From assembly GCA_019114135.1 (NCBI GenBank), contig DXGC01000086.1:1-64000 (forward strand): a stretch of 64,000 nucleotides of DNA, written 5' to 3'. A program made the translations under genes and the position numbers. The stretch is from Candidatus Corynebacterium avicola. Lineage in GTDB: Bacteria > Actinomycetota > Actinomycetes > Mycobacteriales > Mycobacteriaceae. Below the pieces are notes generated by a model, which saw nothing but the letters and a program-made list of their open reading frames with translations, did no database searches and had not been told where the DNA came from. Of the stretch, positions 34,208 through 39,420 are shown piece after piece. Positions within the stretch are counted from its first letter, which is position 1; the number at the start of each line of letters is the position of its first letter.

Positions 34208-36628
34208 TCACTGCGCTGCTGTGTCGGCTGTGTCGGCTGCGTCGGCCAAAGCCCGCAGCAACACCGCCGCACCGTACTTGAACAGCGGGTCATTGCCGTT
34301 TCCGCACTTCGGCGACTGCACGCACGACGGGCAGCCCGACTCGCACCCGCAGTCCTCCACCACATCGGCGGTCATCGCCATCCACGCGGCGAAACGGTCG
34401 AACCCGGCCTCGGCGAAGCCGGCACCGCCGGCGTAGCCGTCGTAGACGTACACAGTGGGCAGCCCGGTGTCGGCGTGCAGCACCGTGGACACCCCACCGA
34501 TGTCCCAGCGGTCGCAGGTGGCCAGCAGCGGCAGCAGACCGATCGCCGCATGCTCGGCGGCATGCAGGGTGCCGGGCCACAGGGGCTCCTCGATTCCCAG
34601 GTCGAGCAGGACCTCCGGCTGCACGGTGTACGCCACCGCCCGGGTGCGCAGCCGTTGGGCTGGCACGTCCAGGGGCACGGTCTCAAGTACCTCCCCGTCC
34701 GACAGGCGACGCTGGTAGCCGGTGACCTGGTGGGAGACCTCGACGGAGACATCGGCGAGCCACACCCCGGAGTCCGTGTCGGGCGTCCCGCCGACCTGCA
34801 GGGTGCGGTGGACCTGCTCCACCCGGATATCGGTGGTCTCCTGCGGGCGCGTGGTCCACTCCGGGGTCTCCGGGTGCACCACCGCCACCGAGTCCTCCAG
34901 CGACAACTCGTCGACCACGAAACTCTCGCCCTGGTGCACGTACACCGCCCCGTCGTGCACGTCACCGACCGCGCGGGCGGCGTCGACGGTGCCCAGCACA
35001 CGTCCGGACTCGCCGTCGACGATCACGACCTCCTCGCCGGCACCACCGCGGATGTTGACCCGGCCGTGGACCTGCCCGGCGATCTCCAGGTCACAGAACA
35101 GCCCCCGCGGCCGACGTCGCAGTGAGCCCTCGGCGAGCAGGGCCTCGATCACCTGGTGGACCGGCCCTGGGTCGGAGTCGCTGAACCGTCTGACGTCCGC
35201 ACCGGTCAGCGGTGCCTCCGCCGCCGCACACAGCAGGTGGCCGGCCAGGATGTACGGGTTGGACGGGTTGAACACGCTGGCCTCGACCGGGGTGTCCAGC
35301 AAGGCGTCGGGATGGTGCACGAGGTAGGAGTCCAGCGGGTTGTCGGAGGCGACCATGACCACCAGGCAGCCCTGGCCGCGGCGTCCCGCGCGTCCCGCCT
35401 GCTGCCGGAAACTGGCGACCGTACCGGGGAAACCACAGGTCACCACGGCGTCCAGGCCGCCGACGTCGATGCCCAGTTCCAGGGCACTGGTGGCTGCCAG
35501 GCCCAGCAGGTCGCCGTTGTCCAGTCGGTGTTCCAGCTCGCGTCGGGCCTCCGGGGTGTAGCCCGCGCGGTAGGACGCGATGCGTGCGGCGTCGTCGGGA
35601 CGTCCGGCCGTGGCGAGGTCCTCGGCGCAGGCCAGGGAGGTGACCTCGGCGCCGCGCCGGGAACGAACGAAGGTCAGCGTGCGGGCACCCTCGCCGATCA
35701 GCCGGGCCATGATCCCGGCGGCCTCGGTGGTGGCGGCCCGGCGCACCGGGGCTCCGTGTTCGCCGACGCGTCCCTCGATGAACCCCGGCTCCCACAGGGC
35801 GACGGTGCGCTCACCCTGCGGTGAGCCGTCGGTGGTCACCGCAGTGACCTCACGTCCGGTGAGTCGGGCGGCGTGCCCGGCGGGGTCTGCGGTGGTCGCG
35901 CTGGCGAGGATGACGGTGGGACGGGCGCCGGCCTGCTCGGCCAGACGCAGTAGTCGGCGCAGCACCAGGGAGACGTGCGCGCCGAAGACGCCCCGGTAGA
36001 CATGGCATTCGTCGACCACGATGAACTGCAGGGTGCGCAGCAGCCGGGACCAGCGGGTGGACTGGCCGAGGATCGAGGCGTGCACCATGTCCGGGTTGGA
36101 GACGATGATCCGGGCCTCGTCGCGGATGGTGCGACGGGCCTCGGTGGGGGTGTCGCCGTCGTAGGCGGCGACCATCACGTGACGCAGTGCGGGCACCGCC
36201 GAACACAGCTGGGCGAGGGTGCCGAGCTGGTCCTGGGCCAGGGCCTTCGTGGGGGAGAGGTACAGGCAGGACGCGGTGCCACCTGCAGCTCCGGTGGCCC
36301 CGGCAGCGAGGTGGGAGAGGACGGGGAGCTGGTACCCCAGCGACTTGCCCGAGGCGGTGCCGGTGGACACCACCACGTCACGTCCGGCCCAGGCGTGCTC
36401 TGCGGTGGCGACCTGGTGGCTCCAGGGGCTGCTGATACCGGCGTCGACCAGATGGTCGCGCAGTGCGGGGTTCACCCAGTCCGGCCAGTCCACCGGTCGG
36501 GCGGGCCGGGCCGCTTCGGAACGCGAGTGGGTCAGCGGGGAGTCCTGCAGGGTATCGGAAGCGACCTGCGACGACACGTCAGCCGGGACGATGATGTCCA
36601 GAAGCTCGGCACCGTAGGAATCGCTCAT
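34208..36628 (-). CDS. DEAD/DEAH-box helicase with DUF1998 cysteine-rich C-terminus
   Basis: STGTASGKSLGYQLP, DECHVYRGVFG, RQQAGRAGRRGQG, DCGCESGCPSCVQSPKCGN; start at ATG 36628. Confidence 0.92.
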   Translation of the reverse strand: MSDSYGAELLDIIVPADVSSQVASDTLQDSPLTHSRSEAARPARPVDWPDWVNPALRDHLVDAGISSPWSHQVATAEHAWAGRDVVVSTGTASGKSLGYQLPVLSHLAAGATGAAGGTASCLYLSPTKALAQDQLGTLAQLCSAVPALRHVMVAAYDGDTPTEARRTIRDEARIIVSNPDMVHASILGQSTRWSRLLRTLQFIVVDECHVYRGVFGAHVSLVLRRLLRLAEQAGARPTVILASATTADPAGHAARLTGREVTAVTTDGSPQGERTVALWEPGFIEGRVGEHGAPVRRAATTEAAGIMARLIGEGARTLTFVRSRRGAEVTSLACAEDLATAGRPDDAARIASYRAGYTPEARRELEHRLDNGDLLGLAATSALELGIDVGGLDAVVTCGFPGTVASFRQQAGRAGRRGQGCLVVMVASDNPLDSYLVHHPDALLDTPVEASVFNPSNPYILAGHLLCAAAEAPLTGADVRRFSDSDPGPVHQVIEALLAEGSLRRRPRGLFCDLEIAGQVHGRVNIRGGAGEEVVIVDGESGRVLGTVDAARAVGDVHDGAVYVHQGESFVVDELSLEDSVAVVHPETPEWTTRPQETTDIRVEQVHRTLQVGGTPDTDSGVWLADVSVEVSHQVTGYQRRLSDGEVLETVPLDVPAQRLRTRAVAYTVQPEVLLDLGIEEPLWPGTLHAAEHAAIGLLPLLATCDRWDIGGVSTVLHADTGLPTVYVYDGYAGGAGFAEAGFDRFAAWMAMTADVVEDCGCESGCPSCVQSPKCGNGNDPLFKYGAAVLLRALADAADTADTAAQ

Positions 36629-36937
36629 GATGACGAGTTTAGAAAGATGCTGGTCCCCGCGGTGGAGGAGGGGGTCGATCGGATGGTTTTTCAGTGAATG
36701 CGGTGGTTCGTATGGTGTTTGTCTGGCGAACGTGGAACACTGGTGATCGGTCACAGTTTCTGTGCGTCGCTTTGCTCGCTGCTTTTTACGGTTTCACCCG
36801 CAGACAGTAGGTAAAACGTTCGCGGGAGTTGTTTGCATGCGAACGGACCAACCATCTGGTGGTCTCAGCATCGGCCCGGTGTTCCTGCGAAGAGTTGGCA
36901 GGGCACCGATCACCGAGAAAGTAAGTAAGGAAAGAAC

Positions 36938-37141
36938 ATGGCACAGGGAACCGTCAAGTGGTTCAACGCCGAAAAGGGCTACGGCTTCATCGCTCCGAAC
37001 GATGGCGGCGACGACGTCTTCGTCCACTACTCTGAGATCCAGGGCAACGGCTTCCGTACCCTCGAGGAGAACCAGCAGGTCGAGTTCGAGATCGGCGAGG
37101 GCGCCAAGGGCCCGCAGGCCCAGCAGGTCACCGCTCTCTAA
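36938..37141 (+). CDS. cspA: Cold shock protein
   Basis: [32 protein letters not shown]. Confidence 0.97.
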
Positions 37142-37232
37142 GACATCTGGGCCACTCCTGGAGGGGGCGTGTTCTCGAACACTCCCTGACAGAGGCACAG
37201 AACCAAGGTTCGTTCCGACGGACCTCGACGGC

Positions 37233-37267
37233 ACCGCCGTCACCGGAATTCATCCGGTGGCGGCGGT
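37233..37267 (+). terminator. Intrinsic terminator after cspA
   Basis: accgccgtcaccgga-attca-tccggtggcggcggt followed by tcctcgtttt. Confidence 0.75.
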
Positions 37268-37401
37268 TCCTCGTTTTCAGGGGGTCAGTGTCCCAGTGGG
37301 CTGCTATCCCGTCCTTTCACCTGGATGACCTGCGGGAAGTGCTTCGTTCGGATGTCCATTCTGCCGTTCAGACTTTCCCGCGCATTGTCTCGCGTGGTTG
37401 T

Positions 37402-37491
37402 GTCATCGGAGAATGCACAGCGTCATCGGACTGTGTCGCTCTGGTCGTGCAAGGTGACATTCTTCAATGACGATGTGCACAGTGCGATGAC
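37402..37491. repeat. 90-bp palindromic repeat element, copy 1
   Basis: gtcatcggagaatgcacagcgtcatcgg...atgacgatgtgcacagtgcgatgac; roughly 80 of 90 positions match copy 2, same orientation. Confidence 0.9.
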
Positions 37492-37610
37492 AGAGGATGG
37501 CCGGGAGCGCTGGTGTCAGCTGCTCCTGGTACAAGGGCTGCTGGACGGTGGACAGATGGCGGGGCACAGACCTGTGCTTCAAGAAGCGAGGTGACCGGAA
37601 GCGGTGCATC

Positions 37611-38804
37611 TCAACCGAGAGCTTCGCTGATGCGCTCCCGTAGCGCGATGACGGCATCGAGGTCGTTCAGATCTTCGGCGATGACTCGGATCACGTGGCC
37701 GCCATTGCGCTGCAGTGCGGCCAGCACCTTCGAATCATGGTCCCGTTGATGTCGGTGAAGGTGGTGGACGCCGTCGTAGAAAAGGTGGACGCCGGGCTCC
37801 TCCCACCCCAGGTCAGACACCGTCAGTAGTGAGCCGTCCTCCTTGAAAACCGGGATTTGGCTGCGCAGTCCGGACGCCAGGTCGCTGACCACCAGTCGGA
37901 GCAGGGATTCCGGCGGAGACTCGGCTCCGACATCGGTGAGGTCAATGATCTTGGCGGCGAGCCGGGCGTCGACGCCTCCAGGGACGCGAAGCGCCGCAGG
38001 ATTACCCGGTTCGACTCGTCCCAGTGCCTGGTGAAAACTGTCGGAGACCTGGACACACTTGATGAATTTCGGGGATAGCTCTGGCCGCAGAGAGGTGAGG
38101 TCAGGCGCGGCGCGTAATGCATCGTGGATTCCACCAGACTCCATGACCTGCCGAAACATGTGGGACAACGTCGTCCCCGTGGGTGCTACTCGAAGTCCCG
38201 GAATGTCTCCGTCCAGCGATCGGGCGGAGAGGACATGCGTTGGGTGGTGTCGGGTGGGGCAGACCTGGACATGGTCGGGAGCTGTGGCCGGGGAGGAACC
38301 GGGCGGCGCGAGAAACTCGAGCAGTTCCTCTTCGACGAAGTACGTCATTCCATACAGTGATGCAGCGCCGAAACCGGTGGCAATGCGGTGTGGATGACGG
38401 ATCAGGTGGGCGAGGGTGAGCATCGCTGCCGGAATGCGACGTGACCTCGTGTAACCGGTGTCGGTGGTAGCCGGAAGAAGGCTGTCGTTGTCGAGGTAGA
38501 CGCCATACTCGACGCGTGTGTAGTTGTCCCTGATCGTGGTGCGCGTGATCCCGTTGCGGATGAGTTCGCCTCTGGTCAGTGGACGATGGCCGGCAAGTGG
38601 ATTCCGTCGTTTCTTGTGCCGCCAGGAAATTCGGTTGCGGTACCAGTCGGTCGGAGTGCATTCCGGGGGCAGGCACAACGGACTCACCTGCAGTCCGGCT
38701 TGCGGCTGCCTTTGTTGGCGGATCGGTGGGTCGGCCGACGTGTTGCGCTCGGTTACTGCCGAATCTTCTGTGCCGCCTGGTGCTGGTATGCGTCGAGAGC
38801 CCAC
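37611..38804 (-). CDS. Orphan protein: AbiEi-antitoxin-like wHTH N-terminus, DUF559/VSR-like endonuclease-fold C-terminus
   Basis: LTRGELIRNGITRTTIRDNYTRVEYGVYL...RIPAAMLTLAHLIRHPHRIATGFGAASLYG; C-terminal DLGWEEPGVHLFYDGVHHLHRHQRDHDSKVLAALQRNGGHVIRVIAEDL. Confidence 0.65.
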   Translation of the reverse strand: MGSRRIPAPGGTEDSAVTERNTSADPPIRQQRQPQAGLQVSPLCLPPECTPTDWYRNRISWRHKKRRNPLAGHRPLTRGELIRNGITRTTIRDNYTRVEYGVYLDNDSLLPATTDTGYTRSRRIPAAMLTLAHLIRHPHRIATGFGAASLYGMTYFVEEELLEFLAPPGSSPATAPDHVQVCPTRHHPTHVLSARSLDGDIPGLRVAPTGTTLSHMFRQVMESGGIHDALRAAPDLTSLRPELSPKFIKCVQVSDSFHQALGRVEPGNPAALRVPGGVDARLAAKIIDLTDVGAESPPESLLRLVVSDLASGLRSQIPVFKEDGSLLTVSDLGWEEPGVHLFYDGVHHLHRHQRDHDSKVLAALQRNGGHVIRVIAEDLNDLDAVIALRERISEALG

Positions 38805-38879
38805 CCCGGCCCCACCTCCCCTGAGTCCTTGAGGTTATTCAACTACATGCGTGCGGTGTCCGGGGAGGAATACGTAAGA

Positions 38880-38969
38880 GTCATTGGAAAGTGCACAGCG
38901 TCATCGGACTTTGTCGCTCTGGTCGATCAATGCGACATTCTTCAATGACGCTGTGCACAGTGCGATGAC
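38880..38969. repeat. 90-bp palindromic repeat element, copy 2
   Basis: gtcattggaaagtgcacagcgtcatcggactttgtcgctctggtcgatcaatgcgacattcttcaatgacgctgtgcacagtgcgatgac; internal perfect 14-bp inverted repeat. Confidence 0.9.
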
Positions 38970-39039: not shown

Positions 39040-39420
39040 CTATTCTGCGTGCTCTTCGCGGTAGGAGACGACATCGTCCATGCTCTGCACAGTCCAGTCG
39101 AACAGGGCGTGGATCGGGGGAAGGGCCGAACGTCCCAGGTCCGTGAGGTCGTAGACCACGCGTGGCGGGATCTCGGGGAAGGCCGTCCGTGCCACAAGGC
39201 CGTCTGCGACCAGGGCGGTCAGGCGCTGGGCCAGGACGCGGTCGGAGATACCGTCGACGGCGGACCGCAGGTCACGGTTGCGCAGGGGGCCGTCCTCCAG
39301 GGCGAGCAGGATCAACATGTTCCACCGGTCGCCGACCTCTGCGAACAGGGTGCGACTCGGGCACGCGCGTGCGGCGGGGTTCCATGTAGGGCTGGTCGCT
39401 GGAGTGGTCATGGACATCAC
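39040..39420 (-). CDS. HxlR-family transcriptional regulator
   Basis: CPSRTLFAEVGDRWNMLILLALEDGPLRNRDLRSAVDGISDRVLAQRLTALVADGLV. Confidence 0.9.
   Translation of the reverse strand: MMSMTTPATSPTWNPAARACPSRTLFAEVGDRWNMLILLALEDGPLRNRDLRSAVDGISDRVLAQRLTALVADGLVARTAFPEIPPRVVYDLTDLGRSALPPIHALFDWTVQSMDDVVSYREEHAE

Follow-up and report, generated by a model that had tools for sequence, protein, structure and literature searches.

A gene of Candidatus Corynebacterium avicola, whose product has a putative DUF559/Vsr-like C-terminus, lies between two copies of a 90-bp palindrome, and homologous genes in other Corynebacterium genomes are bracketed by palindromes with sequences of their own. By sequence comparison, a cognate linkage of gene and palindromes is well supported. 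We propose, with a probability of about 0.55, that the bracketed protein has the palindromes as its cognate DNA sites and would form with them a two-part system that works like REPIN-RAYT with an unrelated nuclease; binding, cutting or spreading of the elements by the protein is what we infer.

The unit and its palindromic elements

The unit is located in the window, which is the whole stretch of 64,000 nucleotides that was analysed. Its features and neighbours are listed in Table 1; the neighbouring genes cspA and topA were named from their sequences.

Table 1. Features of the unit and its surroundings, in positions of the window. The half-sites are based on GTCAT invariance and the 20-bp register.
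Feature	Position	Strand	Description
Whole unit, palindrome-gene-palindrome	37402..38969	.	1568 bp; between cspA and the HxlR-type regulator gene
Palindromic element 1	37402..37491	.	37-nt arm, 16-nt spacer, 37-nt arm
Element 1 half-site A	37402..37415	+	GTCATCGGAGAATG
Element 1 half-site B	37422..37435	+	
Element 1 half-site B'	37458..37471	-	inverted
Element 1 half-site A'	37478..37491	-	inverted
Palindromic element 2	38880..38969	.	layout as element 1; begins 76 bp upstream of the start codon of the gene
Element 2 half-site A	38880..38893	+	GTCATTGGAAAGTG
Element 2 half-site B	38900..38913	+	
Element 2 half-site B'	38936..38949	-	inverted
Element 2 half-site A'	38956..38969	-	inverted
Bracketed gene	37611..38804	-	397 aa; putative DUF559/Vsr-like C-terminus, fast-evolving N-terminal and middle part
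cspA intrinsic-terminator-like hairpin and T-rich tract	37234..37278	+	read from sequence; the unit is downstream of the terminator
DEAD-type helicase gene with MrfA zinc-binding domain	34208-36754	-	neighbour
cspA	36939-37142		neighbour of the unit
HxlR-type regulator gene	39040-39420	-	neighbour; followed by topA

The two elements have 90 nt each, stand in direct orientation and are 90% identical in an ungapped alignment, in agreement with the first-pass annotation, which had described two direct copies of ~90 bp with about 90% identity. It had also found them almost completely self-complementary, and indeed the folding of either strand is far stronger than that of 200 dinucleotide-shuffled sequences (z -3.9 to -7.3). 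As it had noted, there is no third copy within the 64-kb window; at least seven more are found elsewhere in the genome. A search of this genome detected copies on several contigs with 74-90% identity, so the elements are not a lone pair.

The C. avicola genome has at least nine copies, two of them on contig C50 and the others on C56, C112, C87, C81, C15, C23 and C71. As the assembly comprises 128 contigs at draft level (94% complete, 2.6% contaminated), all copy counts are lower bounds and the copy on C112 could come from a related strain. Candidatus C. faecigallinarum has at least six copies, and the degenerate-pattern scan alone gave five contig stretches there. When one genome for each of ~85,000 species was scanned with the exact degenerate pattern, the only matches outside the C. 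avicola genome were those in C. faecigallinarum. Diverged elements were detected in four more Corynebacterium genomes with a covariance model, and the plasmid, phage and viral collections gave no match to the elements. Five copies are found at orthologous places in both species, namely the two gene flanks, near gcvP, at permease/PhzF and at PLP-enzyme/GntR, and the orthologous pair on the gcvP side is almost identical. The solo sites are mostly 3' of genes, convergent pairs included, and not at promoters. Furthermore, C. avicola has two copies of the gcvP-side intergenic region together with ABC-transporter genes and related palindromes (L004 on C112 and L006 on C81), which is to be explained by a duplication or by DNA from a related strain in the draft.

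All 15 copies of the two species are exactly 90 bp long and align without gaps. An arm consists of two direct half-sites, GTCATYGNANNNTG, with their starts 20 bp apart; the second half-site is followed by TCG and then by a 16-bp spacer of low information. The opposite arm is the mirror image, which gives four half-sites per element, and GTCAT is invariant in 60 out of 60 half-sites. Comparing orthologous elements, with the gcvP pair excluded, 147 out of the 152 half-site positions are identical, against 36 out of 64 spacer positions and about 50-65% of the immediate flanks; choosing the half-site positions from this very alignment favours the contrast, but the difference is still large. Judged from this alignment, the constraint is on the half-sites and not on the spacer or the flanks. 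Within one genome, the two elements flanking the gene agree more closely with each other (81/90 positions in C. avicola and 73/90 in C. faecigallinarum) than they do with their orthologues in the other species (68/90 and 70/90), which hints at homogenisation of the elements within genomes. Within a genome, all solo copies differ from one another, and a recent burst is therefore not indicated.

The first-pass annotation had listed a structured RNA pair among its options and had described the structure as largely kept under sequence drift; neither was borne out. In the 15 copies 85.4% of the cells pair, compared to 86.6% after shuffling, and the covariation score of 0.091 against 0.103 for the shuffled copies gives no excess either. 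The variable columns 8, 10-12, 28 and 30-32 of the 15-copy alignment are often unpaired; seemingly compensatory changes are visible by eye in single copies, but by count there is no excess of them. Moreover, the elements have no match in Rfam and there is no T-rich tract at them. Pairing without covariation can be explained by repeats of one motif, as protein-binding half-sites would give, and a DNA-binding platform seems a better description of the 90-bp palindrome than an RNA fold. The pair counts without covariation excess and the missing Rfam match led us to reject a structured RNA.

The bracketed gene and its homologues

DUF559 belongs together with Vsr-like and PD-(D/E)XK-type nucleases, and to our knowledge DUF559 proteins are widespread and have no known function. 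The window protein has no direct match in Pfam, NCBIfam or PADLOC. Its description as DUF559-like in the first-pass annotation holds for the family, as full-length homologues match DUF559 (Pfam: PF04480, gathering score 20.6) with scores of 25.3 (L117), 22.1 (L095) and 21.8 (L090), but the window protein itself remains unmatched. The residues E299, D331, Y343-D344-G345, H348, D357 and R373 are invariant in 25 family members, and we regard the C-terminus of the window protein as a putative DUF559/Vsr-like, nuclease-like domain. Among the close homologues the C-terminal part has the highest conservation (0.67), compared to 0.42 for the N-terminal and 0.44 for the middle part. Low conservation would be expected of these two parts if a changing DNA specificity resided in them, which we infer. 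Fold prediction from two sequences gave an unusable model with a mean pLDDT of 31. Compared to its neighbours, the gene has a much higher rate of evolution.

Homologues with 45-54% identity were found by protein search in several genomes that also carry diverged elements. Within the genus Corynebacterium, 71 out of the 242 genomes have a homologue at E 1e-10, and a search of 299 genomes of the order, from 76 genera, brought no further genome to E 1e-20. Reading the DNA around the genes revealed homologues bracketed by palindromes of ~82-94 bp and of different sequence. The link between the element and this type of gene is stronger than initially stated, with palindromes specific to each gene. 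We took the local alignment score of the left and right flank as flank similarity, with a cut-off of 50; among 353 control intervals of comparable size, 0.85% reach this score. The cut-off is reached by 8 out of 13 close homologues, including the window gene, and by 12 out of 40 distant ones; a matched flank pair is undetected in the other 5 close and 28 distant homologues. In these five close homologues one palindrome or more was read next to the gene or, in G146 (L078), a palindrome pair that encloses a stretch with two gene fragments. A separate dyad-only test is weak, as 8.5% of the control windows reach its cut-off.

The arms tested, from 17 elements of ten genes, have their best self-match at a shift of 20 bp (21 bp in one paralogue); 10 out of 14 matches at a 20-bp shift are reached by 1.5% of random 90-mers. 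Depending on the gene, the half-sites are GTCATCGG, GCCATCCGG, GGCAGAGG, CCTTCA, GCCCTGGG or GTCCGCGGG, and the 20-bp geometry is common to all of them. Half-sites of one gene have a similarity of ~0.75-0.95, those of different genes mostly 0.3-0.6. Protein and motif are modestly correlated (Mantel r 0.35, p 0.023, n 10), a correlation which is confounded by ancestry.

C. avicola has a paralogue (C31:34778) with its own motif, of which two copies flank the gene, three further full copies are on C76, C56 and C45, and three are interrupted; no copies of this motif were found in C. faecigallinarum. One solo copy in G127 has the motif of one of the two genes of this genome, and for the other gene only the flanking pair and no full solo copy was found. 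A solo copy in G160 resembles the motif beside its C4 gene. As far as motif comparison goes, solo copies match the motif of the local gene in at least two genomes.

Three second-family palindromes at the ends of contigs C31, C38 and C41 (L134:1501-1669, L135:1-190 and L136:1-190) have one intact arm, which is followed by other DNA with an IS-like end. L135 and L136 have 130 out of 130 bases in common there, with no plasmid match. From these sequences it seems that an insertion sequence entered the spacer of several second-family palindromes; ISPpu9 has been reported inserted in REPs (PMC8450116).

Besides these palindromes, there are near-identical flanking hairpins, made of GCAGCAACCCCGGAGG and its complement, at the distant homologues L117, L119 and L128 of three genomes (G003, G030 and G094), which make up another, better conserved type of bracket. 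A branch of DUF559-type paralogues, with as many as seven in one genome, is found in G149 and G234 (L102-L112); they have mainly the C-terminal domain in common and are mostly without detectable bracketing repeats.

Presence, absence and turnover at chromosomal loci

An element between rpsI and glmM is present in C. faecigallinarum and absent from C. avicola, and one between a DUF3073-like gene and purM is present in C. avicola and absent from C. faecigallinarum (gene names as read from the sequences). Five further relatives have no unit at cspA, with a gap of 140-297 bp between cspA and the HxlR-type gene; in a sixth relative (G024) the interval consists of 1176 bp of other sequence. The junctions of these empty sites are imprecise because the intergenic flanks are too diverged, and none of the empty sites is base-precise. 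Reading the flanks by eye revealed no target-site duplication. In the three inspected cases (cspA, rpsI and DUF3073) the element is positioned downstream of the host gene's own terminator.

By eye, the cspA-HxlR intervals of G160 (L195) and G024 (L199) contain an apparent degenerate or half palindrome of the GGCATCCC type, downstream of the cspA terminator. As two relatives thus seem to have palindrome remains of another motif here, elements may have landed at this spot repeatedly.

Several genes of the family occupy a common set of few chromosomal places. At the leuS locus of three species, LeuS is 85-86% identical and the bracketed gene 43-56%, and the palindrome motif has changed between the species, being unrelated by eye. 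At the cspA place the adjoining DNA has an identity of 89-92%, compared to 73-79% for the protein. We also considered that solo copies could be scars of lost units, like solo LTRs. There are no convincing gene remnants beside the solo copies (one weak match, E 0.09, at L086), which speaks against such scars, and the scan reported no second element near them; this candidate was rejected.

Known systems and competing explanations

REPIN-RAYT systems have short palindromes of inverted half-units with a variable spacer, which are dispersed between genes and bracket a gene with its motif (PMC3116915, PMC3733652). Likewise, the system found here has dispersed intergenic copies with the gene's own motif and a partner gene bracketed by its repeats. 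The gene, however, is DUF559/Vsr-like, whereas RAYT is a HUH tyrosine transposase (Y1_Tnp); there is no Pfam match to Y1_Tnp in the gene or ten homologues, and several of them match DUF559 instead. Further differences are the missing GTAG tag in the consensus, which has invariant GTCAT ends, the two direct half-sites 20 bp apart in each arm and the restriction of the system to Corynebacterium as far as found. Copy numbers are far below those of classical REPs. Because enzyme and tag differ, the gene-palindrome system is not a REPIN-RAYT member, but is comparable in layout.

TIRtrons (TIRYT) also have a gene flanked by palindromic repeats, which form small repeat families (PMC3733652), but they use tyrosine transposases. 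The CGTC-tagged REPs are palindromes of 20-40 bp without a known partner enzyme, compared to 90 bp here, and the paper describing them mentions neither Corynebacterium nor Actinobacteria (PMC3733652). The C-terminal E, D, YDG.H, D and R positions are common to the window protein, DUF559 (PF04480) and nuclease-like proteins of the MTES_1575 type; unlike these, the proteins described here come with bracketing palindromes and with a long N-terminal and middle part that evolves fast. MITEs are similarly short, non-coding inverted-repeat elements with terminal inverted repeats and presence/absence polymorphism, but the elements here have no target-site duplication, a strict geometry of four half-sites and a bracketed partner gene. 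Nothing relevant was found in the open-access literature searched on DUF559 linked to palindromic repeats, or on DUF559 with a transposase and flanked. We rate this kind of gene-palindrome system as new relative to the known kinds tested here, because enzyme, element design and host group differ from REPIN-RAYT and because for each of REP, MITE and structured RNA a defining feature is missing. From the first-pass suggestion of a MITE/REP-like mobile unit, the REP-like part is retained (dispersed copies, presence/absence and gene-specific brackets), and the plain MITE is not, because no target-site duplication is visible. Its interpretation is partly supported, with the best fit given by sites of REP type that are cognate to the product of the ORF.

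If the palindromes are the cognate sites of the protein, its N-terminal and middle part would bind the half-sites, probably as a multimer of four, and the DUF559-type nuclease would act on the bound or hairpin DNA. Copies would then be spread or homogenised via a nick or break and copy repair, and the upstream element probably autoregulates the gene as well. The gene would mostly stay at few chromosomal loci, and the dispersed population would consist of the short non-coding copies. The role of the protein may thus be to spread the elements, to homogenise them by cutting and repair, or merely to bind them. Slightly short of even odds, in our estimation, is the wider claim of an undescribed partnership, in which DUF559/Vsr-like nucleases of Corynebacterium, and perhaps of other actinobacteria, would recognise palindromes of their own with four half-sites and propagate or homogenise them, with the recognition sequence and the protein diverging rapidly together on a fixed 20-bp geometry.

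Alternatively, the palindromes could be operators of an autoregulator or global regulator, with the solo elements as its regulon or as chromosome-organising sites under host selection and a secondary role for the nuclease-like domain. The conserved half-sites at orthologous solo sites with drifting spacers and flanks, the element 76 bp upstream of the gene and the invariant geometry, which fits tetramer binding, agree with this, but we regard it as rather unlikely, given solo sites mostly 3' of genes, convergent pairs among them, instead of at promoters, and a second element downstream of the gene. Moreover, the nuclease part is the most conserved one (0.67 against 0.42), and a regulon would resist the wholesale change of motif between species. 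A lower probability is given to a hypervariable cassette of defence or homing type, whose nuclease would be in an arms race, with the palindromes as control or recognition sites and the solo copies as by-products of recombination. The gene's fast evolution relative to its neighbours, its nuclease-like C-terminus and fixed loci with changing content would be explained in this way; PADLOC and known defence families gave no match, though, and the solo copies have no gene remnants beside them and are maintained instead of decaying.

It is improbable that the 90-mers are ordinary MITEs of an unrelated insertion sequence, which came to lie beside the gene by chance or at a hot spot. Inverted repeats, dispersed copies and presence/absence between species would all be typical, but matched brackets, each with the motif of its gene, are found at many homologous genes, no target-site duplication is seen, and limited searches of genome, phage, plasmid and viral collections gave no autonomous relative. 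The least probable explanation, to which we give very little weight, is a structured RNA or a bidirectional terminator hairpin: the strong predicted folding and the intergenic position, often downstream of genes, stand against the missing covariation, T-rich tract and Rfam match, and against the separate terminators upstream of the elements in the cspA, rpsI and DUF3073 cases.

If the proposed cognate system is real, it would be an independently evolved second counterpart to REPIN-RAYT and a non-HUH route to REP-like repeats. One branch of DUF559 would be tied to a defined predicted DNA substrate, and since each gene comes with its own predicted site, its function would be directly testable. 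The orthologue series, in which the recognition sequence changes on a fixed geometry, would be useful for learning a new DNA-recognition code.
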